64,000 nt of DNA from Buxus sempervirens (Eukaryota; Streptophyta; Magnoliopsida; Buxales; Buxaceae). A program made the position numbers and the translations under genes. Below, piece by piece: positions 8,398 through 64,000 of the stretch; positions within the stretch are counted from its first letter, which is position 1; every line of letters starts with the position of its first letter. Under the pieces are notes generated by a model. That model ran no database searches and was not told where the DNA came from. It was given only the letters and a program-made list of their open reading frames with translations. Location: the NCBI GenBank assembly GCA_947561395.2, contig OX387194.1, positions 21,872,048 through 21,936,047 of the forward strand, in the 5' to 3' direction.

Positions 8398-8410
8398 AGA
8401 CGGCATGTCC

Positions 8411-12805: not shown

Positions 12806-12811
12806 AACGTA

Positions 12812-13521: not shown

Positions 13522-13654
13522 CCATCTGTAAGCACCTCATTTTTTAGCTCCCAGGAAAACCAAAAATGCAAACCCTGGACAGAAAGTCAAACCCTGAGGG
13601 GTGAAAAGTTGACCTTTTAATCAAATAAATTTTGGCCACCTTGCTTTATCTCAA

Positions 13655-14180
13655 TGAATAGAGAATCCCGACACGAGTCCAACGCAACTGGGTTTGCAGG
13701 AATCGGAGTCCGGATGAAGGTTCTGCGAGCGGTCAAACTTAAGGAGGAGCCGAGAGTTGACTTTTCCTCGAATTCCGTACCAAGTACCTTGCTCTATACC
13801 ATTGGATAGAGAATCTCGACACGGTTCCAACGCAACTGAGTTTGCAGGAATCGGAGTCCGGATGAAGGTTCTGCGGGCGGTCAAACTTGAGTAGAGCCAA
13901 AAGTTGACTTTCTGCTAAAATCCGATCCAGAGGCCTACCCTTAGGCCATTGGACAAGGAATCTCGACACGGTTCCAATGCAACTGAGTTTGCTGGAATCG
14001 GAGTCCCGGATAAGGAAATATGAGCAAAATCGGCTCCCGGACGTGGCCCGGCACTTCTGCTAAAAAACTCGAGTTTGCTGCTAAACTGAAATTCAGTGGA
14101 TAGGGAATCTCGCACTGATTCCAACGCCACTAAGTTTTCCAAAATCGGATATCAGATGAGCGAGATGTGGGCAGTTGAAG
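13655..14180 (+). repeat. tandem repeat, about 147-bp unit, 3.5 copies
   Basis: Units start near 13654, 13803, 13949 and 14096 (spacing 149, 146 and 147 bp), each with GAATCTCGACACGGTTCC-like and GGAATCGGAGTCC-like blocks. The last unit is the most diverged. It lies within the 5' part of the solo LTR. Confidence 0.85.
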
Positions 14181-14409
14181 TTTCTGAAAATCTGCACACG
14201 TAGCAAATAGTGAAGAAGGAGCAGCAAAATGAAAAGTTTTGAATTAAAAAATAATATTTTTTCTAAAAGTCTAATTAAAGTATTTAAAATAAAAGAAGCA
14301 AAATTAAAAGATGCATGTGCATCCAAAGCTTGAAACAAAAAAATCCTAATATAATAATAATAAAAGTACATAAGAAAAAAAAATAAAATAAAAAAACATG
14401 TGGTTGGAT

Positions 14410-14431
14410 GAATTCTCCATGTGGAGAATTC
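14410..14431. repeat. perfect inverted repeat, 10-bp arms
   Basis: GAATTCTCCA, two bases, then TGGAGAATTC. It lies 18 bp upstream of a longer hairpin. Confidence 0.9.
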
Positions 14432-14449
14432 GTCCAAGTCTTTCCAAGC

Positions 14450-14487
14450 AAGACTTAGCCTCCAAGTTTACTTGGAGGCTAAGTCTT
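14450..14487. repeat. perfect inverted repeat, 18-bp arms, 2-bp loop
   Basis: AAGACTTAGCCTCCAAGT at 14450-14467 is matched base for base by its reverse complement at 14470-14487. It lies about 110 bp upstream of the TATA box of the solo LTR. Confidence 0.95.
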
Positions 14488-14594
14488 GAAACACTCATTA
14501 ACCATCATTGCTTATGTTTAAAAAGAGGCACAAGTGGAAAATGATTAGGGTTTTGGTGATAAAGTAGGAAAGTAATGGAATTTTGGTCATTCCT

Positions 14595-14600
14595 TATAAA
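14595..14600 (+). promoter_or_regulatory. TATA box of the family-A LTR
   Basis: TATAAA is followed about 40 bp later by a strongly CT-rich leader and, at 14896, a good splice donor (AAG|GTGAG). Promoter followed by an untranslated first exon is a plausible reading. No downstream coding exon is seen. Confidence 0.5.
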
Positions 14601-15666
14601 AAGAAAAAACCCTAGCACAAAGAGGGGGTCGCTCATTTTTTTTGGAGATCTCCCATCTCTCCCAAGCTTCTCCATTCTCTCTCCCACTCTCCTCCATCTC
14701 TTCTGGCCCCCCTTTGGCTCCCCAAAACCCTTCAACATCACCTCAAGGCTCTCCTACCCTCTCTTCTCTTCTTCTTCTCCACTCTCACTCAAGCAAAGGG
14801 GGAAGGCTTGCTGTTGGTGGTGCCAAGAGAGGCTCCAGCATTGGTCCTAGCTCCAAGGAGGCTCCACACATCTTCTACAAGGGTTTTAAACCCAAGGTGA
14901 GTTTCCTTGTACCTTGGTGATTCACATATATGAATATAGCATGATTTGAAGTGCATCATCTTGTATGCATGTTGTATACTTGCTGTTTAGCACTAGGTTC
15001 ATGCTTTCTTCCCTTATTCCCGTCATTTGTTTCACACCATTACAAGGGTGTTGGCCTCATAAGGTAAGGTGAATATCCCGGGTGGATCGAAGGGAGAAAG
15101 GGGATTCTTTGGGCTTGGTTTTAGTATGGTATGAGGTTGCTATTGTACTTGCATGATGTTGTTTGCTCCTCCGTTCATCAAGGGAGTGTGCTCCCTTTAT
15201 GCCTTTTCTCATGTATCCCACATGTAACCCCCCTTCCTCATCCCTTCTTGTTGGTTTGCTCTCCTGCTAAGTAAGTGGCTTTTATGAGCATGATTAGAAA
15301 TAAAGTGTGCATATGTGGAGATGCTGGAAAGTTTAGTGATTAAGGGAGCATGTGTTCCTTTGTGCAAGCATGACCACCTCCCCTGGTAGCCCACTATCAT
15401 GACTCGCATGAGTTGCTGCTGGAGGTAGCAGCAACACCCCCATGGCCATACTTGTCCTCCTTTTTAGTTGTTCAAGGTCAAGTCCCAATATTGCTTTCAA
15501 TCTCCTTGTTTGCCTTTGGGTTAGAAATCCCCTTTGAGAGAAGCCAAGTGGCTTTGGTCTACACCACTATGGGCTCACACAGGAGCCCATACGACCCCCA
15601 GAACATCCTAGGAGACCCAAGAAACCAACCCCAATGCCAAAATCCGAAAAAAATAGCTTCTGTAGG

Positions 15667-15772
15667 TTGATCCGGCAACTCAGGCCGGATCAACTGAAGC
15701 CCATGTGTAGCCGGCTAAGGATGCCGGATACACTAAGACTTGTGTGTAACCGGCATCTCAGGCCGGCTACAC
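15667..15772. repeat. dyad array A: three CCG-N11-CGG inverted repeats at 39-bp spacing
   Basis: Cores lie at 15672-15688, 15711-15727 and 15750-15766, exactly 39 bp apart. The first is TTGATCCGGC-AACTCAG-GCCGGATCAA (10-bp perfect arms). The second and third have 11-bp arms based on GTGTANCCGGC with one mismatch each. Every centre is 7 nt. Confidence 0.9.
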
Positions 15773-15915
15773 TGCTAGGATGTTGTTTTTGCTGTTTTTT
15801 GTGCTTTTGTGCTATTTTTGTGCTCGGTTTGACCAAACCGCATAAACCAGAAGGGTTTCTGGGTCACCCGGAAACCCGAGATGGGCCTTGGACACCCGAT
15901 CCAATTTGATTCCAG

Positions 15916-15938
15916 TGGGCCTTCCAACGGGGCCCACT
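15916..15938. repeat. GTGGGCC-N9-GGCCCAC hairpin
   Basis: The arms flank the spacer TTCCAACGG. The same spacer recurs at 16434-16456 with GCGGGCC/GGCCCGC arms, and at 42549 and 42808 with GTGGGCC/GGCCCAC. The arm change is therefore compensated on both sides. Confidence 0.8.
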
Positions 15939-17487
15939 AAGCCCGACCAACATCCTTTTTGTTAAATAAAGGTAATTAAATTGATTGAGTGGGTCAAACC
16001 CCCTGAGGCCCACCACAGCCCAACTGGGGTAGCATGCATGCTTAGATCTAGGCTTGGTTTGGCTGAGACCAAGGGCAGGGCCTATCGGGCCCACCAAGCC
16101 CATTAACCAACCAAGGTTAGGGTTTCAAAACCCTAACTCGAGAAGTCTTGGGCTTTCAAGCTCGAGCCCAGGTAAAGGGCCCCAAGCCCAAGGCCTGGCC
16201 CATTTTGGCAAAGGTTAATCAAGAATAACTCAAAACACTTGGCAACCAGGGTGAGGCCCACTCAAGGGCCCACAAACAGTCCCGGCCCACTTGTGCATAG
16301 AAATCACTTAAATAATCAAACTGGAATTTAAATAAAATCAATTCACTTGAACCAAAGCCTAAAGGGCCTCTCAGGTTTAGACTGAGGCCCACCAAGGAAA
16401 CACGTGGGCTCAACCGAGCCCACCAAGGAATCCGCGGGCCTTCCAACGGGGCCCGCCCAATCAGACTCACATCACTTTAATTAAAAAGATAAAATCAAAT
16501 AAAGGGATCCATACCATTTTGGCGGTCCCGCCAGGCTTAACCGAATTGAATGCTGGATTAGGAATTAGATGAGTGAGAGACCAACTGAATTGACTCAAAC
16601 TAGGGAAACCTATGGGACCCGTCACTTGACGGGGTGGACTGGGGTGTCTACGGACTTCCCCAGACCGCAACCGAGAACCTACTTAGAATCTCAAGCCGCA
16701 GACCAAGCCTTAGTAAAAGAACTTAGGCACCCAGGTGTCTGCCTGCACCCCATCAGGCAGTGGCGACTCCAAACAAATCCCGAGGCACCCATCATTTTGC
16801 GTGCGTCTCGTCGTGCGACCGAAATCGGGTGCGCACACCATCGTCACTGAAGAGGTGCAAGAAGAGCAACTCGACTGGATCTCAAAGCGCTAGAGGTTTA
16901 GACATGTACTTAATCAAAGCAACAGCGACGATAAGGATGCTTACGTCTTATTAAGCCCTTCAGCATCGGGAAAGACGAAGACAAGGACAGAAGATGCAAA
17001 GACTGAAAAAGCTAAGCCCTCGACTGATCGGAGGAAATTCTAAAGAAGTTATATTCCCTGCAACATTGGAAGAGAAGAAGGGAAATAGTGGAGAGGCCGT
17101 TTCGGCTAACAACATCCATCTTTGAGCCTTGGTTTTCAACTTCGCAAGCTCAAATCAAGATTATGATCGGCATCGGTACCTGAACACTCTACTGATTGCA
17201 GACACTTAGTCCTCAAGGATGCAAAATCCTATAACATGTTACCCCCTAGAGAAGAAGGAAACAATCTTCATTTACTTACCCTTAGTATTGAGCGTCATCA
17301 TATATGCTTGGATCAAAATTGGTCACTGCCTCCTTCCCATTAAACTTAATTGCAGCCTTGTCATAAGCCCTAGAGAAAAGCACAAGAATATTCCATCATA
17401 TGAACTGCTAGTGTCATTCATTAGTATAAAAATTAGCAAAAAAAGCATAAGCATAATATACAGGAATCTGTCCCAATGCAAAATCAG

Positions 17488-31606: not shown

Positions 31607-33473
31607 ACTGCTTGCTAACGCAGGCCGCCGTGTGTGAGACATGGATTCGTCATCTCGGATGACTTTCGATATCACCACGAGGGGATCGATAAAATATTAA
31701 GAGTCGCCACCATCCATTTTAGAGTGTGAATGGACACCAAAGGGTTCATTGATGTCAAATAGAGCCAAAGTGGCTCTAATACAGGGAAAAATCCAGAGAT
31801 TGGGTACGGGGAATTATTTATGAGCGGGGGAAGGTGTTAGGCACCCCCACTCATCCGTCTAAGACGGTTACCACATGCTTGCTCATACTAAGAATTGTTT
31901 TTCTAACAAAATGGGAAAAAGGGTGCTTACAACAAGCACCATGTATGTGATCATCCCACATGAGAAGTCTAATGAACTTAGGCCCTCTTTGTGGATTCAT
32001 CACTTCTAAAACTTCATGAGTGAAGGAAAATCAAGGTGAAAATTGAAACAAAACCAATTCAAGGTAAATTTGGAAAAATCTGACTAAAAGAGCTTGAAAG
32101 CTTCGATTAACCATAACTCATTCAATTTAAATCCAAATCCATTGAAACTAAAGCCATTTGAAAACTGGTATATAGTAGAGTATACAGTAAAAAATTCAGC
32201 TCAATCCGACTTAAAATGAGAGAGATATCCACATCTGAAATTTGCTGTTATAACTCATAAAAAGCGATGAGTAGGCATTTTCAAAGTCCTATTCGTGGAG
32301 ATTGGCTCAATAAAAATCCATGAAAATTGGTATGGAGGAAGTATGTGGTGCCATCTTTCCAAAGAAAAAAACCTCACACCAAACTCTACCCAAATGTGGC
32401 TTGTGTGCTCTCTTGAACAGGCCTAGAAGACCACAGATTAGCTCTGGACTATGCCAATGAGCATCTCTGAGTCAATTGAGCACCCAAGGCACAAAACAGA
32501 TCAAAATCTGCTGAAACCAGTTGGAAATGAAAATAGACTTCTCAAGGAAAACTCAGAAATTAGAATCACTCAAAACGGATTACAATTGAATAAACGGTGC
32601 ACCATCAAAGCGGCAAGTTCAGCAATCTGGGCTGAACTGACTTACAAACTTTGAACAGATGGTGTCAAAAATTGGCTAAATGAAAGTGAACGAAATTTTC
32701 CAGATATGAAATAGACACATCCATCTATCACATGTCTTTGGAATCACTCAAAAATTCATCCGGAGGATGAAGTTATAAGCATTCCAAGACAGGCCACAGA
32801 TCTGCCCTGTTTTGAAGATTTTTGGATAAAACATGGAAACCAGTGCATGTGTGAATGTGGATTCGACCAAAACAACTTAGAAATCAATGGAAACCACCTC
32901 ATGAAGTTCTAAAATTCATTCTAAGGCCAATAATCTCAGATTTCCCGTATTTAACACGGAAATCCAAGATCTAGCCTATTCAAGGAAAAATAGTGAAAAG
33001 TGTGTGTGAAGATGTGGAAAATCACATTTCTAGGAGAAGGTTGGAATCCATTGCTATTGAGAGCATGGATTTGTGCATCTTCTCCAAATACAAAATAGAT
33101 CAGGGAAGCATTCAAAGGTTCAAAATAACCACACAGCATGCTTTTCATCATTTATGGGTTCTAAGCCTAGAGGATCCATTCCTACTTCTTTTTCCCAAGG
33201 CTCTCTCTTCACGTTTTACGGCTAGAGAGAAATCCCAGGTACTTTGGAAGAGGTTTGGGGCTGCAAACAATCACCAGGGCCTTACACTACAGAAAGGTAG
33301 AAGATGAGAGATTGCTAGAATGTAAAGAGGAAGCAATAAACTCAAATGAGCTTTACCTTAGTAGCTTGAGCAGTTGAGTAGACAATCCAGCAGAGTTTCT
33401 CCTCCTTCTTGCAGAGCTTCTAAGCCTCAAATTGTCAGCCATTTGCAAGAGGAGGACCCCTCTATTTATAGGC

Positions 33474-33480
33474 CAATCCA
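33474..33480 (-). promoter_or_regulatory. TATA box of the family-B solo LTR
   Basis: TATAAAT on the minus strand is followed by a leader of about 100 bp and a splice donor (AAG|GTAAAG, boundary 33357). The same layout is seen at 58.93 and 62.46 kb. Confidence 0.5.
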
Positions 33481-33670
33481 GGGGTAGAAGAGTCCCAAGG
33501 GTAGGCCAAAAAAGCCTTCTAGATTATTCTAATTCTCCTCAAAGGCTTGAATTGGAGTAATTCAGTAAGTTTCGGAGGGTGAAATAGGGAGTTCAAGTCC
33601 CCAAGAGAGAGGTAATATGCGTAAATAAAGCTCAGAGATCGAGCCATTTCGCAAATCCCCGAGACAGCCA

Positions 33671-33938
33671 AAACCGCATACACAGTACGGTTTCAACACA
33701 ACCGTTACTCAAAGTGCGGTTTCTATACAAATTTAACCAAACCGCACATACAGGACGGTTCAATTCAGTTACGCTCGTCATGATTGCTGTCGACGTGGCT
33801 CAACGGCCGAAGCTTCGCGAAGCCACGTGGCAGCCCATGCAACAAGCATGAATATCAACCGTGCTGTGTGTGCGGTTGCAACCGTACATACAGGGCGGTT
33901 CATACCAAATTAACCAAAACCGCACATATACTACGGTC
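33671..33938. repeat. dyad array B: six AACCG-type inverted repeats
   Basis: Cores start at 33674, 33702, 33742, 33859, 33882 and 33920. Five are exactly CCG-N11-CGG and one has N12. Arms are AAACCGCA/TACGGTTT and variants, with centres such as TACACAG and CATACAG. Spacing is 28, 40, then (after a 117-bp gap holding a separate GACGTGGCT/AGCCACGT dyad) 23 and 38 bp. Confidence 0.85.
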
Positions 33939-35202
33939 AGCACCTTTTTGGTTGGTTTTGAGCCTTAGCTGCACAGGCCAGGCTTATTTACATGTAATAT
34001 CGTTTAAGTAAATGTCCTCGTATCTTTTAATCTCCATTTACTTAAGATATTACATGTAAATAAGCAAACACCCCCCCATTTGAATCCATTAAAAATATTT
34101 CCAGACCCAAATTCCAAGTGAATAAAAAGTCAACTTTCCAGTTCCAGGCTAAATTCCGGTTTTTCAGGTCCGGTAAAAAGATTTAACATGTTGATACAAA
34201 GGTATTTGTCAAGATTTAAAATCTCAAAAAATTCATTTATGCAATAACATTGCAAAAAACCTAATTACCGGGAAAAATTATCTTCAAATCTTGCTTTAAA
34301 AAATATTTCATTTTCTGGGGTCAAAAGTCAACAAAATTCAACCCGAAAAAGTTTGACTTTGCATAAAAGATTGAATTCGGGCCTTTTCCTTTGCGGTTTT
34401 GGATTCAAATGGGTTAAGGATCTCAAACCCAATGCTAAGAATTGAAAATTCAATAAAATATTTCTCTCCTTCAAGATTTATCAAAAATCGTGCAATTTTT
34501 GGGTGTCTACACCGTGGCTAGTGAGCGAGTGTTGACATGCTTCAATATTTCGAACAGCAGATCCTTGTCCAAATGAACGTACCCCGTACCCTCCTCTTCT
34601 TCGCCTTTCTTTCTTCTTAGCCTTCTCGTCGTCGCCTGCCAGCAGATTGCTGTCAGTATCGAGTGGGCATTTCATCTCTGACCACTGAGGAGCTCCGCTT
34701 CACCCTTCTGGATTGGATGCCGAGGAATCTGAAAAGAGTCGTGGTAGAGGATTCGGGAGTAGGGACGGACCGACGGAGATATGACCTCCTTCTTTATACG
34801 TTGCTATCTACACTCGTTATTTAATTGGTTCAGTTGAGATGGAAATCACATATTCACAATGGGGACGATGAATTGGGAAAATAGCTCATTTCACAAATTC
34901 ACAAACGGCTTCAACCCTTCAATCTCCAACAGAAGTCTTCAATCGAAATTCTTAAGGTTTTATGGGGCAAGTCGTTCTCGGTGAAGATAAATGGATGATT
35001 CATTCATCCCCTGTTCTCCCTTTCACGATGAATATTTGCCCTCTTGAATCTTTTGTTTATTAAGTGCTTAATATGTATGTTTTTACCAAACACCAATTTT
35101 TGAAATAAACCTCAATTTGCAACCGTGGATAAGTGCTCGACTTAAAATAATCTTTCTATAAGCTCTTATCCATAAGCACTAGCATTCCCAAACGCCACCT
35201 AA

Positions 35203-42319: not shown

Positions 42320-42400
42320 TATCCGTATACATAGGGCGGTTTGGCCTGATCCGTATGGTATATATGGATCAAGCTAATCCGTATGGAATATACAGGTCAA
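42320..42400. repeat. dyad array E: three ATCCGTA-type inverted repeats at 28-bp spacing
   Basis: Left CCG cores start at 42323, 42351 and 42379, exactly 28 bp apart. The first has CGG at the expected N11 distance, the second TGG and the third CAG, each one transition away from CGG. The middle dyad has TGATCCGTA/TATGGATCA arms with one mismatch. Confidence 0.75.
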
Positions 42401-44227
42401 TCACAGAGGTTGCAGATTTTGATTTTTCCGGAATAAATCAGATTAAAACTAATCATAATCAACTTACCTTAAACCAATATGGTCTCTGAGCAATTAGAGA
42501 TCCCTTTTGGGGATTTGGGCATACCCAAGGCCTAATAATGCATTCCTTGTGGGCCTTCCAACGGGGCCCACACTCATGTTGCTTAACACAAATCCATCCC
42601 AATGGTGGATTCTAAGCAACTTGAACACTCTATGGACCTCCTCCAAGCCCAATGGATCCTCTTTAAAAACCTAAACCAATCAAATTAAATGTTTTTGCAT
42701 CTTTAAAACATATCCAAACCAAATAACCAAATCCCAAAAGTGGGATTATCCAATGTAATCCCAAAGTGGGACCTAGGCTTATCTTAAGCCCAAATTGACG
42801 TACCTGTGGGCCTTCCAATGGGGCCCACGTACTAGACCCGCATCATCTTTAAAGTAATAAGATAAAATTGAATAAAAGGGATCCACACCACATAGATGGT
42901 CCCACCATAACCAAAAATGAAGAATGCGTATCAGATTAGGATCGGGTGAGCAAATCAAGTTGACTTTACCAAAATTAACTAGGATGACTCATGGGACCCG
43001 TCACTCAACGAAGCGGACTGGGGTGTCTATGGACTTCCCCGGACCGTAATCGAGAACCTATTCAGAATCTAAAAAAAGCCACAGACCACCTAATTATACA
43101 GCCTCTTAAGTAGCCAGGTGTTTACCTGCACCCTATCAGGTAGTGGCGACTCCCCATTCCCCAATTTCCTAAAAGGAGGCATGTACCCACGTGCACCTCA
43201 ATTAGACGTGCGGCCCGCGGATCGCCACACGCACAGCACCCAAGTGGCTTCTCGTCCTCAAGGTGAGCTTCTTAAACCCCATCTATACAAGATATATGAG
43301 TTTGAGTCCAACATGAGCATGTTTTCATTATGAGTTGTTTCTTTTACTCTAGCTTGTTCCTCCCTCCTGTTTTCTTCATTTCTTCCTCATTTACTTAATA
43401 AAGATGGTCTCCCATGGTAAGGGGAGGTAAATTGTCAAGTGGGAGGTTAAGAGGGTATGTCAAAAGTCCCACTAAAGTCTCATTTTAATGTCTCTCCATG
43501 CATGCTTCTTTATTATCATTCAAGGAAGAGCTTGTTCTTCCCTCCCTCATCCAATGTATCCCATAAATCCCCCTCTTTCCCTTCTTTATTTGCTTCCTTA
43601 GTTCTTCTTAGTACTCTTTTTTTTTTTATGTTGTTATGCTGCTTCATGAGGTTGCTTTGCATAGTTTACCACACTTAACATGCACACATGGGAATGCATA
43701 TCATACACACACATACATTGATTTGGATGGCCTTAAAGCATGTCCTCCCTTTTGTATAATGTGCCATGAAGAAACATGCCTAGATTCTTCCTTCTAGGCA
43801 CACTCCTTGTTACACACACTCACATGTATTTTCAGTATAATCACCATGCTCAATACCTTGGTTTTTTTAGCATTTTTTGGTTGTGATGTGTGGGCATGCT
43901 ACATGGATTGGCCGGTGAGACCATGGTATGATCATTTTGGATCATTCTTTCTCCTCTTGATGTGAGGAGAAGGAGCTGCCATTTTTGCCATTAAAGAGAC
44001 ACTGTTGGTCTCTTTTAATTGCTGGGATTTCCTCCCAATAGGGAGGGGAAGGCCCCTAGCCTCATCCCCTCCCTTCCCTTGCTTCAAAAATCAAGATTAA
44101 TGGCTTGATTAGGATCAAATACCCAACTTCAAACCACTATGGGCCTGCCCAGGGGCCCACAGAAACGTTGGTTACCCCAGAGAATTAGTAAGCCCAATCC
44201 CCCTCCAAAAATTGCATTTTTATGATT

Positions 44228-45207: not shown

Positions 45208-45227
45208 TCTTTACTACTATAAAAAGC
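45208..45227 (+). other. Helitron 5' terminus
   Basis: The TC start follows an A, and the sequence continues TTTACTACTATAAAAAGC. The choice rests on the A/T target rule and on continuity of the flanking LTR at 45207/58286. Confidence 0.75.
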
Positions 45228-45264
45228 ACGAAGCCTCTTAAGTGTTTGTCGACTTTTATCTTCC

Positions 45265-45520: not shown

Positions 45521-48500
45521 ATTATGATATCAGTAACGGGGTGAAACGTAAGAATCGGAAGGCTGAAAAGTTTATTAAATTATTAAATGATCATAAAGCT
45601 ATTCTCCCTTCAATCCTCATCACGGTCGCTGTAGATTTAAAAAAAACAAATTCAAAACTAGGACTCTTTAACAACTTTATCCTAAATATAACCGGATAAG
45701 ATATACTACCAAAAAAAAAAAAAAGGATATACTACCAAACATAAAAAAAAAGGATATACTACAAATTTCTCAGTGTCAAAATCACAATATTCATCTATCA
45801 ATTCGAGCTGAGAACATGACCAAAGTAGAGATCTATCTGAATCAAATCTTGGCAAGATCTACAAAGTCTGTAGAACACTATCTTGAAGATAACGTTCCAC
45901 CTGAAAATGATACATACAGTAAATGTCCAGCACATATCTAATTGTCATACTGTAGCATGACAAATTGACGAATGGAAGTTCCTTTGACTTGGATCTGATA
46001 GCAACTTAGCTCTTGCTTTTCATCTATGTCTTTGATATAGCTTCTACAGAGGTCTCCAACAGCTGGAAATGTCCTATTAGTTCACAGCAGTTGGTTTACG
46101 GCAAGGATCTGAATTAAGCAAGACCCAATATTCTCAGAGTAGCAAGGTTCAATATAGTTCTTGCTTGAAGAACACGGTCATCTATTTCTTCGTCACTTCA
46201 TCTAATATTCTCAGATCATGGGCGGAAATGGCGTGGTTGGTCTTTCTATTGCTTCCTCGCTTCGTCTTCGCTCCGACGTTGGCCTTCCTTCCGAGAAACA
46301 CCTTGTCCCCAACAAACCAGTAACTGCCTATCGAATGTTATTTCTTCCGTTATCTAACTGTTCGTCGAATTTTTTTTCCCTAAAAGAACTCGAACAACGT
46401 CCAAATCAACATGTAACTGCAATTCCGTTGCTTCACTTTTCAAAACACCCTGATAACTGCCTATCACACCCTTTCAAACGGTCACGTACTATGGCATTAG
46501 ACTCAAAAGAGAGACCAACCGTTTCCAATCATTTCTGATCGCATCTACAATCTTTGTTTCTGCCTCCATCTTCATATCCGTTCTAGGAATATTTCCTTTT
46601 TCAACTAGATTAGCCTCTTCTGTGACGCTTGGCGGGGGCGCACTAACATTCTCGCATTGTTGACTGTTCGGAATCTTGTCCCAAATTTGAAAGAGAGGAA
46701 GAGCAACCAAGTTAGTTGCATCTGTTATTATCAATTTGTCATAACAGAGTTATCGTCATCATGCTTATCTGCGTTCAATGGATATATCAGTTTGGGCTTC
46801 TTTAGTTTGGTTTGTTAATTGTTATATGCACCTTCAAGAGATTACCTGATATGTTTTGCTTTTGATTAGGAGGCTGTGAAGCCTGAACTTTCAGTTGCTG
46901 AAACAACGTTTTGTTTAAGAGGCTTCACTCATTAAAATTCTATGTATAAAGCTTTCTACCTCCTGTGATAATAGTAAACTGTTTTTGTAGGATGAGATAG
47001 GCACCTGACAAAGACAGATCCCTTCCCTTACTTGGGGAGATATCATTTTAGTGTCCCTACCACGGCCTCTATCAATAGAGAGAGAGAGAGTGAGAGAGGG
47101 AGTGGCTATCTCTCTATCTTTTATCATTCTGTGTAATCCTGAACAGAAAACATAACGTAGTGGTTGTAGTAATGACAGAGAAGCAGCAACCTTAGCTTCT
47201 CAGAGGGGAAGAATAGTAACAGTAGCCGATAAAAGAAAGATCAAATTCTGTTCCCAAAAGAACAATCACATTAGTGGAAAAGATGACCTGATTTCACAAC
47301 TATGAAATCAGTGATGATTGGTTGTTGGAATTAGATGCTGCTGCATCCTGATCCCCAGTAATAAACCCTTAATAATGGAAAGCTGTTTGATATGTAGGAC
47401 CTCCATTCACAGCTTTGAACTTAATACCCCAAAATAGACACAAACAATACCTATTTACCTTCATATCCAAAGCTAATACCCCTGTTTAGCTTTCATTTTC
47501 AAATTATATTTTCCCACTCCAAAAGTAGAAATAATTAAAGTTGGGCCTATTATGTTGTCATATATGTTTCTTTAGGCGAGTTGTTTAGGGCAATGTTGTT
47601 ATTTGCATACTTTGTGAAGCCATATAGTTTTTCTGCTCTTAGTAAACATCCCTCACAGGCCGATTGTAACCTCCCCTGGATGGATTGGCAATATGGAGAT
47701 GTTAATGATAATGTTGAGCACCTTTTTTTCTTTATAATTTTTTTTCCAGTCTTACTACCCCCATCCCCCATGGGTAGATTGTAGCCTCTTTTGTGTTCTG
47801 TCTTCACTAATATATATATATATGGTACACTAAAGTCCATATGGCAAATGTGACTGGTGCTAACATCTGTTATGTTAAGTGGGACGTTGTGGAAAGGTGT
47901 AGATTTCATTATGTTAAACAAATAGATATTGTGGAAAGGTGTAGATTTCATTAAACAAATAGATTTCATTATGTGAAACAAATATAAATATTGTTTTTTT
48001 CTTTCTTTTTTTTTAAATTCCTCTTCTCAATGACCCTCTAATGGTATAGCGTCTAAGATTTTTTTTAAAGGGAAAATGATATTAATTTGGTAGAGCCTCA
48101 CCAAAGAACAAATCTAGAGCTTTAATAATACAATCCTTGAAATTCCAGATTTTATGAAAAAATTTTTGTATTCCCTAATTACTACCTCCATAAAATGTTA
48201 TCCATTAAACCCACTAAAAAACTTGATGGAGACAGTATACCTTCGTCAACAAAACCAAGAAGGCATTAGTGTTTTAGCTCATTTACGGCCAGCAATAAAA
48301 TTATCAAAACAAGCTCTATGCATAAGTGACTTTGAACCCCAAAAAACACCTTTTGTTTTAAACCTTGGAATCATAAAGCACAATGCCTAGCCTCCCTTAT
48401 CTCCAGTAATGGACGCAAGTAAAAATCCATTATTGTTAAAAACGTAGAATTTATTATTAAAAAGTTGATTTGAAGCCATGTAACTATAGTATTGTTACCG

Positions 48501-50690: not shown

Positions 50691-53600
50691 TTTTCTTCTA
50701 TTATGTTATTTAACTAATGATTTAAATTTATTTTTTGTTTCCCGTCCTATATATATTTAATTTGTCATTTTATTTTTGTACACACACACACACAAACAAA
50801 AAGACACACACATACATTTGTGCATATAGCATTTATATTTTGTAAAATGTTAGTTCCAGAAAACATACGTGCACAGAGACGAATCTATAGAAGAAATCGA
50901 TATGCCCGCCTATCAGAAGAGGGCCGAGAACAATACATTCAGGGTGTTACTGACTATTGAAAAAGGAGAATGAACCATGTTGGCTTTTACCTAAATGAAC
51001 ATTATGTTGCGGAATTTAGCGACAATAGGCGAATGCGATGGTTACTGAAAGCTCAGATAGTCTATAAAGAAATTACAGGTTAGCCTTGTAACATAGGTAA
51101 AATAATTGTTTCATAGGTAAACTATATATTGATGAATTTCTATTTGCTATTTTATTTATAGGTGAACTATTTTATGAACCAGTTTGTTCTGTCGCACATA
51201 TCCTCAAGAGAGTTCCATTTTGTACTTACTGTGGAGCAAAAAAATTTGAATACGAACCTCCAACCTTTTGTTGCTATAATGGGCAAATCAAATTAGCAAC
51301 AAATAGAGTTCCATCTGAGTTATACAACTTATTTACTTCTCAAGAAAGTGATGCATTTGTGTTTCGAAGACATATATGGGCATATAATAGCATTTTTGCT
51401 TTTACATCGTTTGGAGTTAAATTGGACAAGGATCTAGCAAACTCAAGAAAAGGTGTATACACTTTCCGTGCACAAGGGCAAATATACCATGATCTACCAG
51501 AATTTGTCCCCTGAGAGAGAACTCCCTGTTATTTTCAGTTATATTTCTATGACACAGACCATGAATTGCAAAACAGAATGAGTATATTACAAGATGTGGA
51601 TCTGCAAGAGGAAATTGTGACGAAGCTAATGGCTGTACTATCTGAAAATCCGTACGTTAAATTTCTTCGAAGCTTGAGATACATAGAGTCATTAGAGGAT
51701 TATGAGATCCATATTAGAAGTGATGTTAAGATTGATCAAAGGGTTTACAATGCACCTTCAGTAGATCAAGTTCCTGCTATTTGGATTGAAGGAAATAATC
51801 CTAATATGCTTCGTGAAAGAGATATCATAGTGCATGCACATTCAGGACATATTCATAGGGTGAAACATTACTACAGTTGCTATGATCCTCTGCAATATCC
51901 TTTATTGTTACCAAGAGGAGAATTAGGATGGCATCCCAAAATATATAAGCAAAGTTATGTGGAAGTTGGAGATTTTAATGATGAAGCTAACCGTGATTCA
52001 AGTGTACCAAGATTGAATTCATCATCCGATATTTTCAGCCAAGAGCAAGAACGTATTTATATAATGTTTTATTAAATTAATTATTTACTTATAAATATAA
52101 AATTATGTTAAATATTATTCTTATTTTTTAACTTCTATTAGTGAGTGCTTTATATTTCTATTCCTGTATATGTATATTTATTACAATTAAAATAAAATTA
52201 TAGATGCAGATGATGGAAGTAGAGAAAAGGTTTCAATTCGTCAATATTATTGTTACAAACTACAGATAAGAGATTTGGATCATTCAATACTATTATATGT
52301 TGAGCGACTACTACAACAGTATGTGGTTGATATGTATATAAAACTTGAGTCAACTCAATTGGACTACTATCGAAGGGGACAGTCAAAGATCAGAGCTGAA
52401 TTATATCAAGGGATAGTTGATAGTGTATCATCTAGGGAAATTCGAGGCAGCAAAGTAGGTCAGAGAATAATTTTGCCCGCATCTTTTATTGGTGGCCCAA
52501 GAGACATGCGTCGGAGATATCTTGATGCGATGGCATTGGTGCAACGATTTGGTAAACCTGATCTATTTATTACTATGACATGTAATCCTGAGTGGGATGA
52601 AATCCAAGAGCAACTAAGAGATAGCCAGTTTGCACAAGATAGGCCAGACTTGACTGCAAGGATTTTTAGAGCGAAGCTCCAAGATTTAAAAGACCAATTG
52701 TTCAAAAAACATATATTTGGGAAGGTTGCAGCACAAGTTCATGTGGTTGAATTTCAGAAAAGAGGATTACCACATGCACACATGTTGGTAATTTTAAAAT
52801 CAAAATACAAGATCACTGGTCCTAATCAATATGATAGATTTGTATGTGCTGAGATTCCAGATCCTGAAGTGGATTGCATAATTTATGAATTGGTTATGAA
52901 AAAGATGATGCACGGACCTTGTGGAAATTTCAATAAGAAAAATGTATGCATGAGAAATGGAACGTGCAAGAATCACTATCCTCGTCAATTTTCACCCAAT
53001 ACATTACAAGGAAGAGATGCATATCCCATATATAGAAGAAGATGCAATGGCAAACAGGCATTAGTTCGTAAAGTTATGCTGGACAATCGGTGGGTGGTCC
53101 CTTATAATCCCTATCTTCTTACCAGGTATAACTGTCATATCAATGTTGAGATTTGCTCTGGTTTGAAAGCAGTTAAATACTTATATAAGTATATATATAA
53201 GGGTCATGACAAAGTTGCTGTACATGTTGCACCATCCGAAGGGACTAATTTAATTGATGAAATTCAGCAATTTCACGATGGATGGTGGGTATCTTCTCAA
53301 GAAGCAATATGGAGAATTTTTGAATTCAACTTGAATGAAATCTGGCCAGCAGTAATTATTTTACAGTTGCATCTTCCAAACAAACAATGTGTGTATTATT
53401 GGGAGAATCAAAATTTGGAAAGTATGATCCACAGAGATGATATAAAAAAGACAATGCTGACAGAGCTCTTCCAGATGTGTTGCCTTAATACTAATGCACA
53501 CCAATACTTATATAGGGAGTTTCCTGAACACTATGTTTGGAATAAACAATCAAAGTGTTGGACAATGAGAAAAACAAGAAACGTGATTGGACGTCTAAAT

Positions 53601-55544
53601 GGTGCAAACCCATCTGAAGGGGAGAGATATTACTTGAGACTCTTATTAAATCATGTTCGAGGACCAACATCTTTTGAATATCTATTGACAATAAATGGTA
53701 TGAGATGTGTATCGTTCAAAGAGTCAACACAGAAATGTGGACTATTGGAAACAGATGAGAGTATATCAGAATGCTTACGAAAAGCTGCATCGTTTCAAAT
53801 GCCATTCGAGCTACGTCGCTTATTTGCAACTCTATTAGTTCACTGTGAACCATCTGATGTTGGAAAATTATGGGATGAATATTTCAAAGATTTGTCTGAT
53901 GATTTTAGAAGGACAAATGCCGTCGATTCTGAATCTCATGTGTCAAATACGGTTCGAAGTATCAACTTCTTTATTGAGAGTATGGGGAAAAGTATAATGG
54001 AATATGATTTGCCAAGGATGAACCTAGAATCATGCAATGATATGTATACTCATACTCGAGAAATTGACGATGAAAAGGGAATGATTGTTTCTGATGAAGA
54101 TTACTTGATATCGTCACAGTTGAACCCAAAACAGCGACTGGCATATAATATCATAATAGATCGTGTGAAATCAAATAGCAATGGGATCTTCTTCAGTGAT
54201 GGACCAGGAGGGACTAGTAAGACTTATTTATATCGTGGATTGCTTGCCACGTTGAGATCACAACATTTTATTGCTATAGCAACAGAAATGTCAGGAGTGG
54301 CAGCATCAATTATGCCTGGGGGACGTACTGCACACTCGAGATTTAAAATACCAATAAATCTCACAGAGTCTAGCCTATGCAATATATCAAAACAAGGTGG
54401 CACTGCTGAGTTATTGCGATCTACTAATCTTATCATATGGGATGAAGCTCCAATGGCAAAGCGAATGGCAATTGAAACTTTAGATAGAACTCTACAGGAT
54501 ATCATGAGCAATAATCTAACTTTTGGTGGAAAGGTTATTGTCTTTGGAGGTGATTTTCGTCAAGTACTACCGGTAGTTCCTCGTAGCACAAGAGCTGAAA
54601 CAATTAATGCAAGTTTGGTGAGCTCATATCTATGGCCAAAAATGGAAAAACTATATTTGACAATAAATATGAGAGCCAGTTGTGATTCATATTTCAGCAA
54701 CTTTCTTTTAAATGTTGGCAATGGTGAGGAGCCTACTATTAATGGAGATATGATACGAATTCCAGATGAAATGGTAATCCAATATGAAGGTGATGAAAAG
54801 TCAAAAGGGTTGTTGATTGAAAGTGTCTTTCCTTCACTGAAGCAGAATGCTAATTCAACAACTTATATCACTCAACGCACAATTTTGGCCACTAAAAATG
54901 ATTTAGTGGATAAGTTGAATGAAAAGCTAATCATACAATTTCCTGGTGAGGTGCTTACATACTACAGTTTCGATTCAGCTTTTGATGACTCACATACTAC
55001 GTACCAAGAAGAATTTTTGAACTCATTAACACCAAATGGACTTCCCCCTCATAAGCTCATGCTCAAAGTAAACTGTCCCATCATGTTACTATGAAATTTA
55101 GATCCTGCAAATGGACTGAGTAATGGCATACGGATGATTTGTAAGGGTTTCAGTCAAAATGTCATCCAAGCTGAAATAACAACAGGCCATCACTATGGAA
55201 AACAAGTGCTGATTTCGAGAATACCTATGTCTCCTACAGAAAATGAAGGATATCCATTTCATTTCAAGCGGAAGCAATTTCCAATACGACTTTGCTTTGC
55301 AATGACAATAAATAAGGCACAAGGGCAAACTATAGAAAATGTTGGTATTTATTTACCAGAGCACGTTTTCTCACATGGCCAACTATATGTAGCACTGTCT
55401 AGAGGAATTTCAATGTCTACAACGAAATTACTGATCAATCCAGATTCATCTATTAAGAAGAGGGGAATATATACAAAAAATGTTGTCTATAAAGAAGTCC
55501 AAGCTGGAGGGAGGTATAAATATAATTGCACAATATTTATTTAA
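50665..55544 (+). pseudogene. Helitron RepHel (HUH replication initiator plus PIF1-family helicase)
   Basis: The protein nicks and joins single strands through its Rep domain and unwinds DNA with its helicase during rolling-circle transposition. Four exons join in frame (50665-50680, 50854-51078, 51162-52052, 52204-55544): 1490 codons, the usual plant length. The N-terminus has a zinc-finger-like CTYCGAKKFEYEPPTFCC. The Rep domain has the HUH motif in LPHAHML (about residue 567) and the two-tyrosine motif in KYLYKYIYKGHD (about 701). The helicase has Walker A GPGGTSKT (about 1044; usual GTGKT, so Gly-to-Ser), Walker B IIWDEAPM (about 1122) and the C-terminal TINKAQGQT motif. Three in-frame TGA codons (50958, 51512, 55092) interrupt it. 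At 55092 the family has Arg, so CGA-to-TGA is likely; the same is plausible for the others. Confidence 0.92.
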
Positions 55545-58455: not shown

Positions 58456-58710
58456 CCACATCTCACAGATTAGAGCACATGGGGGTCTACCCTACGGATC
58501 CACCTGTTCTCTTTTCCCCTAGCTCTCTCTTCACGTTTTACGGCTAGAGAGGATTCTTGAGGTACTTGGAGACAAGTTTGGATATACAAACACAATCAAA
58601 GGCTTTATTCTAGAAAAAAGGAGAAAAACAGAATATGGGGTTCTATTCTAGGGATCCACCTGTTCCCCTTTCCCCTAGAGCTCTCTTCACGTTTTACGGC
58701 TAGAGAGACT
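58456..58710 (-). repeat. tandem duplication (about 156 bp) in the split family-B LTR
   Basis: Two units each carry GGATCCACCTGTTC, TTTTCCCCTAG and the 19-mer CTAGCCGTAAAACGTGAAG (minus strand; 58529-58547 and 58685-58703). Confidence 0.8.
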
Positions 58711-58930
58711 CTTGAGGTACTTAGAGACAAGTTTAGGAATACAGAATAAAAGATGGCCTTATTCTACAGCAATGGAGAAGATCCTATTACTTCTAGAATT
58801 GAAGACAGAAAATAAAAGGGAAAAGGGACTTACCTGGATTGAGCAAGCAGAGCAGCAAGGATTCCTCTCTTCTCTTGGAGCTCCTTAGACTTCAAATTTT
58901 CGTGGCCTTTTGCTTAAGAATCTCCCCTCT

Positions 58931-58937
58931 ATTTATA
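58931..58937 (-). promoter_or_regulatory. TATA box of the split family-B LTR
   Basis: TATAAAT on the minus strand, with a leader and a CCAG|GTAAG donor about 100 bp downstream (boundary 58834). Confidence 0.5.
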
Positions 58938-59138
58938 GGCAAACCCAGGGGCATGGTTGGTCCAGAAGGATATACCAAGATCCCACCAGATTGGGTTAAA
59001 AATAGGGATAATGCCCATCCATGGCCAACAAAGATATTTCGAAAGAATAAAAGAGATAATTCGCTCATTTAAAGAGATATTAGACTGAAGATAAGGCTCA
59101 GAAATCGAGCAAAGATAAAATTCGCACAAATCTAATGC

Positions 59139-59243
59139 GCCCGTAAATGTATTACGGGCAAGTGGTGTCCGTATTTGCATTGTGGGCGCTGCGTGCCCGT
59201 ATACATTTTTTGGGCGCGGCCAACCCGCAGATATAATACGGGC
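59139..59243. repeat. dyad array C: four GCCCGTA-type inverted repeats at 28-bp spacing
   Basis: Left CCG cores start at 59141, 59169, 59197 and 59225, exactly 28 bp apart. The first and fourth have CGG at N11; the second and third have TGG there, as expected from deamination of a methylated CpG. The best pair is GCCCGTA-AATGTAT-TACGGGC. Confidence 0.85.
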
Positions 59244-59810
59244 ACTGCCTAAATTATTGAATTTTATGCATTTTGGCCTGTTTTAAACCCCAATTACATG
59301 TTTTCATTATTTTCTCATTTTGTAGTACAATTTGGGGTGTCTACACACGGTAACACTATGCATGAGCTCATAGAAAGCCAATGCCATAATATAACTCAAC
59401 AATTATATCAATATCAGTGTACGGAAACAAAAGAGAAATAAAACTAACTAAACTAAATCTTTATTACTCCATAAATTTTGAGAAAGTCTTCAAATAAAAT
59501 AAGTAAATCTCTTAATATAAAAATTCTGGACACAAAGGTCTACTACATCACTCACTCTCACCTCTCAATCATAAAATATTCCCTAACTACTGAAAAATAA
59601 ACTCCCTAAAAATATGAATAAAAAATCCTACATAAGACAATAGTAATCGTCCTCTACGTAGTCATCAAACGGATACTCCTCACTAGTACCCTGTGGCTCT
59701 ACCCCAGCAATATCGTCCTCTCCAGAATAGTCTGAAAACAAAACAAAACAAGAATGAGATATAAATCCCAGAAAGTAACACATGCATGAATAAAGCATTT
59801 TATCATACAT

Positions 59811-59841
<31 letters not shown>

Positions 59842-61941
59842 ATTCTCAAGATAGCATGTGTTTCAAATTCAGAACAGTAACGGATAATTCAATTGCAATT
59901 CATTTTTCAATTCAATATCAAAACAATAATTTCCAAATAAATCAAATCCTCGTCATGATGTAACATCACAGGACTCATGAAAACAATACATCTCTGAAAA
60001 GCTAAATGCTTGAGTCAAGGGTTGCCACCTCACGGCTTAGGTGCGAGTTAAGATACACAGTCATCGATTAATTGCGGATCACCCAACCGAGATACAGGGA
60101 GGGCTGACACGTACAATCCAATCAACTGCAACAATGTAGGAATACCAGACCAGGATACATGGTGGGTAGCCCAAAATAACAACATCGAGATACATGACGG
60201 GTGGGATTGCTATAGCACGACCAAATACAGGAAGGCCTCATCAAGATACACGACGGGAGCATATGTGAAACAGGTTTAACCAAACAAAGAAAATACTATT
60301 CTCACTCCTAGCTAGACTATGGATCCATACCAAGCTATGCCCATTAGGCACAAAAAACAAAACACTGAAATCATATAATCTTTGATACCCAAAACAATCA
60401 ACAACGTTCACCATTCATATCAAATCATCCCCAAGATACATGGAGGAAAACAATGCTCAAACTCAAGCTACATGAGTGAGAAATAACCACTCCAAGGTAC
60501 AAAGAAGAAAATATATGCAATTCTTTCAAAACAACACTGGAAACATCTTTAGATAGGTCAAATACAAGTGTAAGAATCACTAAAATCAAAATAAGTTGAA
60601 AAGAAAAGATTTTGAAACGATAAACTTAAATAAAAGCTATTTCAATAGAACGTACCCAAAATCTTTATAAAAATTCAATTTAATCAACGGCCAATGCCAA
60701 CAATCTCAAAACTCTCTAATCTTATTGGTACATAAGTTGGAAATCAATAAAAACAATTTTATAGTAAAAAACTAGGTATATTTCAAAATATCAAATTTTC
60801 TGTCAAGCGCTATTGGGCGCTGGTGCATGCGCTCGTATAAAACTCAATTTGTCAAAGTTGGCTGCTTGGGATCGCGCTCGAGCGTTCTCCCGGGTGCTCG
60901 GCTTACTAAAAATTGTCAACTTTTGAGTTTTGAAAATTTTTAAAAAGCACAGGCACCTTCAGTAGCGCTCAAGCACTGTCGAGCGCCCTGGCAATCAGCT
61001 CAACGCCTAGCATGATGCTTGAACATGATTGCAGGCATCCGTGCAAACACATAAAAATTTGAGTTTTTTGAACTTTACAAAATTTCATATTAAAATCAAA
61101 TAACCCCAAACCAAAACTTCAAATCACTTCGAAAACATTCAAAAACATCCTCTAGACATGTTAGATTAGTTTAAATAAAATTTCGTTTATAAATCAAATC
61201 GAATCAAAACCCATCATATAAAACATACTTTAACAGAGTTTGAGAAAACCAAAACATAACTATCAAACCTACGAAATCCTGGTATAAACCAACATGGTTT
61301 GCTTCGAAAATCATCTTTTAATATGTATCTAAATCATTCATAACAAATAAACAACACTATGCAACGATTAAATAAAAACAAGGGTGTTACTTGTCTTTTT
61401 CACAAGATCCAACTCTAAACTAGTAAAATCAGCAACTCTACTTCTTCTCCTTTATTTCTGGGTATGATTTCTTCTTCCCAACTCTCCAATACACGTCCAG
61501 CAATTGTCCTCTAGTCACACACGTCCAAAACAAGAGAAAGCAACCTTCTATTTTTTTTTTAAATTCCTTTTTATACTTAAAATCTGATTTTTAACCTATT
61601 TAGGAGTTTCTATTCTTCTAAAACAATTACTAGAAGTGTTTGGATGTCCAGCCATGCCCATTTAGGTAATTCCTCCCTATTTAATTAAAATATGATAGCC
61701 TACCTTGCCTATCTATCATTCTCATGCACCTTCACCAAATAAAACTCAAACAAAAGCTCAATTATATACTTACTTGGTTGTTTATTCCTTTTCTTCACAT
61801 CCTTAGCTATCTCTAGACTTGATCTTCCTCTTCACCTCCTATCCATATCAATAAAATTATAATTAATCACTTAATCCAATATTTTCCTCAATAAATTAAT
61901 TAAATTATTTAAAAGGGAAAATTCGGGGGGATTACAACCCA

Positions 61942-62047: not shown

Positions 62048-62134
62048 TGTAGACACCCCAAATTGCACAATAATTGGCAAAATTCATTCTTTCCTTTAAA
62101 ACCAGCACAAAATTTGAGAATTAAGCATTTTTTC

Positions 62135-62281
62135 TTGTATCCGACAACTCAGGTCGGATACAAATATATCCTTTTATATCCGACAAAAGTTGTCGGATAC
62201 AAGCAGGTATTAATGTATCCGACGACATATGTCGGATACATATATGTGCTCTTGTATCCGACCTGATATGTCGGATACAAG
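62135..62281. repeat. dyad array D: four GTATCCGAC inverted repeats at 39-bp spacing
   Basis: Cores CCG-N11-CGG start at 62141, 62180, 62219 and 62258, exactly 39 bp apart, each with a 7-nt centre (AACTCAG, AAAAGTT, GACATAT, CTGATAT). Arms are perfect for 8-12 bp, the longest being CTTGTATCCGAC/GTCGGATACAAG. Confidence 0.95.
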
Positions 62282-62454
62282 TTTTTTGCTCAAAATTAGG
62301 GTTTTCCGAGAGTTTTCACTTTTTACCATCATATCCTTCATTAAAGGAGTGGAAATCTCGGAAATAGCCTTAGGGTTTAGGTTGGTGGACTCTAGACATC
62401 ATTTTGTGTCTACCATCATGCAAACCCTAACCCTAGCCTTTGCCTATAAAGGAG

Positions 62455-62460
62455 GCTCCT
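62455..62460 (+). promoter_or_regulatory. TATA box of the family-B LTR
   Basis: TATAAA in GCCTATAAAGGAGG lies 174 bp downstream of the dyad array and 85 bp upstream of a splice donor. Confidence 0.5.
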
Positions 62461-62520
62461 CCTTAAGCAAATGGCCAATAAGTTGGAGATTGAAGAGCTC
62501 CGAGTGAAGAAGGGAACTGC

Positions 62521-62790
62521 TGCCACATTGCTTCTAGAAACCCAGGTAAGCCTAAATCCCTCTTTATTTTTCTGTCTTTACATTCTAGAGTTAGTTCTTT
62601 TCTTCTACCCTTCTGTAGAATAAGGCCTACTCTTTGTGTATGCAAACCGCTTCCATATTGCTTCCAGAAACCCAGGTAAGCCTAAATCCCTCTTTATTTT
62701 TCTGTCTTTACATTCTAGAGTTAGTTCTTTTCTTCTACCCTTCTGTAGAATAAGGCCTACTCTTTGTGTATGCAAACCTTTCCTCTACTC
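62521..62790 (+). repeat. 140-bp tandem duplication including a splice donor
   Basis: CCCAGGTAAGCCTAAATCCC appears at 62541 and again at 62681, with almost identical sequence between the copies, so the leader now has two CCAG|GTAAG donors. The near identity implies a recent event. Confidence 0.9.
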
Positions 62791-64000
62791 AAAGTACCTC
62801 AAGACTCCCCCTAGCCGTAAAACGTGAAGGCGGGAACTAGGGGAAACGAGACTGAGGATTGATCCTTAGTGTTAGAACCTTGTTGAAAAGCCTTTTGATT
62901 CTATGAAAACCGTTTCATACTCAAAGCACCCCAAGACTATCTCGAAGAACCGTTAAACGGGGAGAGAAAACTAAGGGAAACGAGAATGGAACGGAACCTT
63001 AGGCCTTTTTAGAACCTCATTTGATTGATATGAATGCTATGTGTTATTGAAGAGTGGATTTGTACACATGCACATATTGCACTTGTTTTGTCGGAATCGG
63101 TTTGTGTTTCGGATCTATCGCATTCATTGTGATAGATCTGAAATAAATAGCCCCAAATAATTCTAGGACATTTCTCAATGATTTTAAAATGATTTGGATT
63201 TATATTGCTCGGATTCCACACACCTTATCACTGTTTTGAGTTGATTTTCTTTAAAAAGGCTAAAACTGGACAGCAGCTATACCCCAACTTCGGACACTCG
63301 TAACTTCATCGTCCGGATGAATTTTGGAGTGATTCCAAAGCCATGGGAAAGGTGACGCTGTCTAGTTTATGCCTGCAAATTTTCATCAATTTTTATGAAG
63401 TGGATTTTTGACACCACTCAGTCGAAGTTGATAGGTCAGTTCAGGCTAGATTGCGGAACATGTCACTTTGACTGAGCGCTATGTGTTCGTTTTATGTCCG
63501 ATTCGAGTGATTCTTATTTTTTTGTTTTCCTTCCGAAGTCTAATTTCAAATCCAGTTAGTTTCATAATTTTTTGATTCCATTTGTGTCATGGGTGACCGA
63601 TTTACTCAGAACTGCTCAACAGCACATTTCTAGGTTAATCTGTGATCCTCGGGGCCTGTTCGGGAGGTCACCCAAGGCACATCTGAATGAATTTTTGTAT
63701 GAGGCTAGTTTCATTTGAAAGATGGCTTTACATACTTAATTCATGCCAAATTTCACGGATTTATATGGAGCCAATTTTTCTAAATGAATTTCCAAAGTTG
63801 CCCACTTGTCACTTTTAACTATCTCCAGCAGCAAATTTCAAATGAGCATAACTCCTAGGATTTTAACCGGATTTGATTGAAAATTTGCATGAGTCTTCTA
63901 TTTATTATAATTTTTCAAATGGATTTGGTTTGATTCAATTTAAATTGGATTTGAATGATTTCAAGACAAATGGCAATATCTTTTACCGAATTTTCCGGAT

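Follow-up and report, generated by a model that had tools for sequence, protein, structure and literature searches.

Arrays of CCG-N11-CGG dyads in long Ty3/gypsy-like LTRs of Buxus sempervirens as candidate sites for a putative dimeric DNA-binding protein

Long LTRs of Buxus sempervirens contain arrays of the dyad CCG-N11-CGG that are real and well above chance, and that probably represent cis-regulatory arrays for a putative dimeric DNA-binding protein. The positions, spacing, classes and turnover of the arrays were established, as was their occurrence in a young element. Plant Ty3/gypsy elements with long LTRs are abundant, and to our knowledge little is known about their control. The window, that is, the whole stretch of DNA analysed, comprises 64,000 nt (OX387194.1 of assembly GCA_947561395.2, positions 21,872,048-21,936,047, forward strand) of a 676.5-Mb assembly. 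It was complemented by a sample of this genome, whose core is 11 stretches at 3.0 Mb, taken at round-number positions chosen before the sequences were read; four stretches chosen after inspection of the first eleven brought it to 15, of which one (L016) is mostly N, giving 140,728 non-N bases (141 kb). Genome and sample counts overstate the independent evidence, because copies of an array share descent.

Five arrays were found in the window. Array D (62133..62282, plus strand) consists of four dyads of the form GTATCCGAC-N7-GTCGGATAC at a step of 39 bp (gap N22), the left arm of the second dyad beginning ATATCCGAC, one base off. It lies in a type-1 LTR (62048..64000, plus strand, 5' end TGTAGACACCCC) that extends beyond the window, with the first dyad core at offset 93 and TATAAA at 62445. 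Array E (59139..59243, minus strand), with four mostly CCGTA/TACGG dyads at a step of 28 (gap N11), lies in the 5' part of another type-1 LTR (58508..59345, minus strand, start 59345), which is homologous to copy D on either side of the array. The six dyads of array B (33671..33938, minus strand) have AACCG-type arms and are interrupted mid-array by a dyad-free stretch of 100 nt; the surrounding sequence is an apparent solo LTR of type 1 (31633..34511, minus strand, target duplication CACGG). Array A (15667..15772, plus strand) has three dyads with CCGGC arms at a step of 39 and lies roughly 1 kb past the TATA box of an apparent solo LTR of type 2 (13527..16837, plus strand, target duplication CCATC, TATAAA at 14595), the 3' end of which was inferred from the target duplication. 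Finally, array C (42320..42400, plus strand), with three dyads of the CCGTA class at a step of 28, is located inside a 5'-truncated type-2 LTR, whose 3' part (42673..43153, plus strand) is identical to copy A at 342/450 positions. The earlier claim, made in a sequence-only reading of this DNA, that the arrays sit in long LTRs is thus borne out as far as tested, given the 5-bp target duplications of A and B, the LTR ends at which D and E begin, and the truncated LTR of C. A recount of the 20 dyads agreed with that reading as well: CCG-N11-CGG is exact in 15, the plus strand has TGG in three and CAG in one, and one dyad is N12.

That reading had proposed a comparison of the N11 spacing with shuffled sequence, and the spacing proved to be enriched. 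CCG-N11-CGG matches the window 16 times, compared with a mean of 1.23 and a maximum of 6 in 200 dinucleotide shuffles, and 15 of these matches sit in the arrays, the remaining one being at 12250. All other spacers of CCG-Nk-CGG from 0 to 40 gave 0-9 matches each, and among 64x41 combinations of triplet and spacer this one had the highest z in the window. The sample yielded 43 matches against a shuffle mean of 4.83 (sd 2.14, maximum 10, 100 shuffles), with clusters of at least two dyads in 6/15 stretches (L014, L020, L021, L023, L024 and L026). CCG-N39-CGG was also frequent in the sample (31 matches), as N11 combined with a step of 28 would predict; CCG-N37-CGG was found 20 times. Genome-wide, the arms GTATCCGAC/GTCGGATAC were paired at spacers of 0-30 in 4,412 places, in 4,335 (98.3%) of them at exactly N7, whereas a genome-wide search with reversed arms at N7 gave 0 matches.

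Several other repeats were noted in the window. A separate repeat family with a dispersed motif like GAGATACAYGACGGG, read by eye, occupies 700-2700 and 59990-60500 and accounts for the CCG-N7-CGG matches at 809, 1098, 2639 and 2669. A Ty3/gypsy element at 8062-13143 has 318-bp repeats that are 99% identical, and gag, protease and reverse transcriptase/integrase frames split by single stops; no array was found in it, the match at 12250 being its lone N11 match. A Helitron-type replication/helicase gene (Helitron_like_N, PIF1) forms a long open frame at 52191-55544.

The distance between neighbouring dyads is quantised as well, a regularity that the sequence-only reading had overlooked. The gap, counted from the CGG of one dyad to the CCG of the next, was 11 or 22 nt in 12/15 cases in the window: 22 throughout arrays A and D (5/5), 11 throughout arrays C and E (5/5), and 21, 6, 100, 22 and 11 in array B. 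The steps are therefore 28 and 39 bp, which differ by 11 bp or about one helical turn. Neighbour steps of up to 160 nt in the sample were 28 (ten times), 39 (seven times), 27 (twice), and 55, 56, 78, 84 and 104 (once each). The linker GTCGGATAC-N0..30-GTATCCGAC was found genome-wide in 2,253 places, and among the matches listed (about 50) all were 32 nt long, corresponding to N14 and a gap of 22. Twelve additional arrays selected by the D dyad showed a step of 39 in 28/31 cases, a figure biased toward 39 in that core-mismatched dyads were admitted solely on the lattice; with exact dyads only, 39 accounted for 18/24 steps and 78 for three. Overall, two classes of array emerge, CCGTA-N7-TACGG with a step of 28 and TATCCG-N11-CGGATA with a step of 39. 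In sample and window together, all 13 occurrences of TATCCG-Nk-CGGATA with k from 0 to 30 had k=11, and CCGTA-Nk-TACGG was seen at k=7 in 15 cases and at other k in three. Arrays comprise 2-6 dyads, and the LTR in L026 has eight dyads across two arrays.

Type-1 LTRs start with TGTAGACACCC. In six of them (D, E, L009, L014, L021 and L024) the exact dyads were located at offsets 93-223, the first at 93-160, with TATAAA, taken here and below as a plain string match, at 397-410. Copy B and the LTR in L023 have a longer 5' part, and their dyads begin at 575 and 612, with TATAAA at 1041 and 878, respectively. Among type-2 LTRs, that of L026 has an array at 859-1080, TATAAA at 1112 (one of several such strings) and a second array at 2146-2224, and copy A retains the second array alone, at 2145-2223; in that of L021, dyads at 695-723 are followed by TATAAA at 785 and a single dyad at 1598. 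Dyads are thus found just upstream of TATAAA in L026 and L021, and the downstream dyads of these LTRs belong to the same class as the upstream ones. The type-1 LTRs examined and these two of type 2 have an array ahead of the TATA box; the dyads of copy A are all downstream of it. An array was present in 4/4 sample type-1 LTRs that had a substantial promoter match and had not been selected by array (L014, L021, L023 and L024), a tally in which a promoter fragment of 62 nt (L023 4157) was not included; L006, L007 and L009 were retrieved through the 39-class dyad itself.

Some related stretches have no such array. A scan for symmetric dyads only, allowing at most one core mismatch and requiring at least 7/9 symmetric arm positions, detected none in the type-2-like stretches of L018 (two stretches), L019, L025 and window 43140-44420, or in a type-1-like stretch at window 44500-48000; L019 has a lone asymmetric N11 match at 4227. 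A long hairpin with arms of about 19 nt (44227-44268) occupies the expected place of the array in a type-2 LTR fragment. Five sample arrays (L014 2649, L020 9276, L021 4427, L024 2829 and L024 6190) fit neither LTR type, and further carriers are therefore likely. The arms of dyads in L029 (1632-1772) resemble those of B. Two further features of type-1 LTRs were observed. Their leader contains a tandem duplication, of 130 bp in D (62515-62778) and about 156 bp in E (58479-58779), which includes a splice-donor-like AGGTAAG in D and has a similar counterpart in the LTR in L014. In addition, a MITE-like short inverted repeat (TTATTTACATGTAATAT...) adjoins the array in the extended 5' part of some of these LTRs (33985-34064; L006, L023).

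A complete type-1 element spans L014 and L029. Its LTRs of 1,818 nt start with TGTAGACACC and have three differences (99.8% identical), and it is flanked by the target duplication CAACC. It has the PBS TGGCGACTCTGCTGGGGA, which we take to be complementary to tRNA-Arg, and a gag ORF of Ty3/gypsy type with Retrotrans_gag (PF03732). The five pieces inside the element that reach 100 aa (one in L014, four in L029) gave no pol match, and no YxDD-like motif was seen in the scanned stretch. Plant substitution rates are near 1e-8 per site and year, which gives an age of the order of 0.1 million years. A 28-class array is present in each LTR, and dyad cores account for two of the three differences, both of C/T type and reading CCA in the 5' LTR and CTG in the 3' LTR, as expected if the cores were methylated. 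The array in both LTRs and the two core changes indicate that the array was already present when this young copy arose and that dead copies lose cores fast.

Arrays turn over between LTRs that are otherwise homologous. The LTRs of D and E are alignable before (62/78) and after (314/433) the array; the arrays themselves are not (z 0.2), and their steps differ. Similarly, A and C are alignable downstream and not in their arrays (z -0.7), the upstream link between them running solely through a third fragment, C2 (A/C2 z 19.3, C/C2 z 12.1, A/C z 2.9). E and B have 19/23 bases in common around the first dyad (z 5.8). Arrays A and D are alignable (71/104, z 18.6), and none of four comparisons between parts of the A LTR and parts of the D LTR stood out. 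The 28 class was found in type 1 (E, L014, L021, L024) and type 2 (C, L021), and the 39 class likewise in type 1 (D, L006, L007, L009, L023) and type 2 (A, L026). With each class present in both LTR types, and arrays unalignable between homologous LTRs, it looks as if whole array modules were replaced or exchanged among LTRs.

What is conserved within the dyads? The sequence-only reading described a fixed 7-nt centre and inner bases that are uniform within a copy and matched on the partner arm. This description is accurate for A and D (7/7 dyads at both inner positions) and fails for B, C and E: the first inner position was paired in 0/5, 2/3 and 1/4 N11 dyads of B, C and E, respectively, and the second in 2/5, 2/3 and 4/4. 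Common to all five arrays is CCG-N11-CGG. Pairwise identity among four E-like type-1 LTRs (E, L014, L021 and L024), with dyad columns set on E and small numbers throughout, was 128/144 for CCG/CGG, 147/192 for the two bases flanking each triplet, 1221/1593 for the U3 flanks, 107/168 for the centres and 80/121 for the linkers, and CpG was retained in 27/32 core cells versus 23/36 flank cells. These figures point one way, to better conservation of CCG/CGG than of its surroundings in E-like LTRs. The arm covariation that had been suggested as a check was higher than in controls in the 19 N11 dyads of the window, with a score of 0.488, compared with 0.201 in shuffles and 0.062-0.186 in slid controls, although pairs changed on both sides numbered 8 against 7.5 in shuffles. 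Mispairs on the transcript strand were counted in 50 dyads of 15 orientable arrays, a set that admits mismatched dyads on the lattice alone and leaves out the young element's second LTR, the single N12 dyad and those sample arrays to which no orientation could be assigned. There were 7 G-U versus 10 A-C in the 39 class (27 dyads), 13 G-U versus 25 A-C in the 28 class (18 dyads), and, with the opposite lean, 11 G-U versus 3 A-C in array B (5 dyads). The constraint was assigned to the DNA level because, B excepted, G-U mispairs are not in excess. The outer arms of array A vary among dyads yet stay self-complementary (positions -3 and -4), and centre 7-mers of the 39 class are found facing either way along the LTR (AACTCAG in A, D and L007; CTGAGTT in L006 and L026), which suggests that palindrome repair is also shaping the arms. 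Array D also contains stretches that are inverted copies of one another.

Under the preferred reading, the arrays would be cis-regulatory modules of Ty3/gypsy-like LTRs. Each dyad would be the site of a symmetric dimer, with one half on CCG and the other on CGG, 14 bp away. Dyads 28 or 39 bp apart, with gaps of 11 or 22 that differ by one helical turn, would allow bound dimers to touch and to bind cooperatively, mostly upstream of the promoter, and the protein might act on transcription or silencing of the element. The bases around CCG/CGG would add a further level of specificity, one that has diverged among subfamilies into the CCGTA and TATCCG classes, and entire arrays would be swapped in otherwise homologous LTRs. 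The sequence-only reading had left the choice between sites for a dimeric protein and a structured DNA/RNA element, kept symmetric while its specificity drifts; of the readings tested, protein sites agree best with the fixed spacing, the turnover of arms and the better-kept CCG/CGG, and the missing G-U excess weakens the case for structured RNA. Protein sites are in turn argued against by the array-free LTR stretches, by the irregular gaps of B (21, 6 and 100) and by type-2 arrays downstream of the promoter, an unexpected place for a core promoter site.

A single protein half-site also explains the compensated outer arms of A less well than pairing or palindrome repair. These compensated changes, the centre 7-mers in both LTR-relative orientations, and the near identity of arms in array D (0.97, against 0.36 for centres and 0.49 for linkers) would be expected if palindromes were made by mutation without selection, through hairpin-templated correction or RT template switching, and the unit were spread by tandem duplication. 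Such an origin is nevertheless unlikely, as CCG-N11-CGG is kept in B and E although their first inner positions are mostly unpaired, the E family leans to persistence of N11 where arm symmetry is lost, LTR types unalignable outside the arrays (four comparisons) share the same two steps, 28 and 39, and CCG/CGG outlast their flanks though CpG should decay. We regard as improbable the proposal that RNA hairpins in the leader or 3' end of the element transcript function in packaging, dimerisation or translation. Every array folds better than all of its shuffles (z -14.8 for D, -9.4 for A, -3.8 for E, -6.1 for C and -5.2 for B), the covariation score exceeds that of shuffles, and U3 arrays would fall in the 3' end of the transcript and downstream type-2 arrays in its leader; strong folding and arm covariation are, though, what any DNA palindrome would show. 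On the transcript strand no G-U bias was seen in the 39 and 28 classes (45/50 dyads), B alone leaning to G-U. Moreover, one of four core changes in the window preserves a G-U pair and three break pairing, pairs changed on both sides are about as numerous as in shuffles, and no Rfam match was obtained at gathering scores.

Strong folds would equally suit arrays that are mainly a handle for the host, namely hotspots of small RNA and methylation that silence the element, as proposed for the palindromes of maize Sireviruses. Small-RNA hotspots on Sirevirus LTR palindromes are described in the accessible parts of two reports (PMC5311732, PMC10760457), and the C/T-type core changes that make up two of the three LTR differences in the young element are such as methylated CpG would give. 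The cost of such a handle leaves unexplained why the element keeps the exact spacing, and this account appears no more probable than that of RNA hairpins. That the arrays result from chance or from simple tandem repetition of a CpG-rich unit is hardly credible: arrays inside one subfamily are indeed inherited copies, but no shuffle attains the observed counts (200 for the window, 100 for the sample), and the spacing profile of TATCCG and CCGTA pairs refutes it. For the putative binding protein, the strict spacing rule would offer a direct handle by which to pull it out, with short synthetic N10, N11 and N12 arrays, and the same rule is a label for tracing module exchange among LTR families. 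If encoded by the element, the factor would point to a system of self-recognition or anti-silencing for LTR retrotransposons; if encoded by the host, it would reveal a transcription factor exploited by these elements.

How do these arrays compare with known systems? Sites of fungal Zn2Cys6 (Gal4-type) proteins are CGG-N11-CCG. They share with the present dyads the triplets, the fixed 11-nt spacer and the free centre, whereas the order of triplets is opposite, and this protein family is not known from plants. Likewise, none of the gapped-palindrome factors known to us (NAC, VOZ, ARF, LBD, GARP) seemed to suit both dyad classes. With regard to the carrier, the element in L014 and L029 resembles Ogre/Tat elements in its Ty3/gypsy-type gag and in a PBS that would match tRNA-Arg. 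LTRs of 1.8-3.3 kb and a 5-bp target duplication are further likenesses to these Ty3/gypsy elements as described in the accessible text of Neumann 2019 (PMC6317226); the young element differs in that its pieces of 100 aa or longer gave a match to gag and none to pol, the region that in this lineage would hold a reverse transcriptase with an additional RNase H domain, so that its lineage assignment is tentative. Two ORFs with a plant mobile domain were found, one above cut-off and downstream of a type-1 LTR (L028), the other scoring slightly under the cut-off and more than 20 kb past D (L012); their membership in an array-bearing element is only putative. In IMG/VR viral contigs, a collection that may omit records near this genome, the LTR-start pattern gave 0 stretches and the dyad five scattered ones.

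The closest published kind is found in Sireviruses, and the earlier statement that no plant element of this design had been described was too strong. Sirevirus LTRs, which are Ty1/copia, have repeated palindromic boxes (RM boxes) ahead of the TATA box; these boxes have a CGG-CCG core, vary from element to element, are suspected to be cis-regulatory, are mostly CGG-short gap-CCG, and number at least eight per element (Bousios 2010, PMC2829016, accessible parts). The present arrays are similar in that an LTR holds several palindromic CGG/CCG boxes, which lie upstream of the TATA box and differ between elements; each array has 2-6 of them, with eight in the LTR of L026. They differ in the mostly reversed order of triplets (CCG-N11-CGG), in their Ty3/gypsy-like LTRs, and in type-2 LTRs that carry dyads downstream of the promoter too; the accessible parts of that report describe no fixed N11 spacer, no 11/22 gaps and no Ty3/gypsy carrier. 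A Ty1/copia Sirevirus identity of the young carrier does not agree with its PF03732 gag, its TGTAGACACC start and its PBS TGGCGACTCTGCTGGGGA, which is not of the tRNA-Met type, the usual one in copia according to the text accessible (PMC6317226). In searches of open-access literature, judged mostly by titles and abstract openings, comparable LTR boxes appeared only in Sirevirus work, and the array looks like a variant of Sirevirus-type LTR boxes in another superfamily.

A further parallel is provided by the VANC proteins of VANDAL DNA transposons, whose target motifs include YAGTATTAY and AGTTGTMC (Hosaka 2017, PMC5735166, accessible parts). In that account, as here, short tandem motifs lie in noncoding parts of the element, and motif and array vary among related families; the VANC motifs are not gapped dyads, the carrier is a DNA transposon and the protein is known, whereas the protein here is putative. 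By analogy with VANC, it is conceivable, although rather doubtful, that the arrays belong to a dedicated Ty3/gypsy recognition system, in which a dimeric factor, perhaps encoded by the element, would read a spacing code (CCG-N11-CGG, N11 or N22 apart) with at least two specificities, its arrays being exchanged between LTR families.
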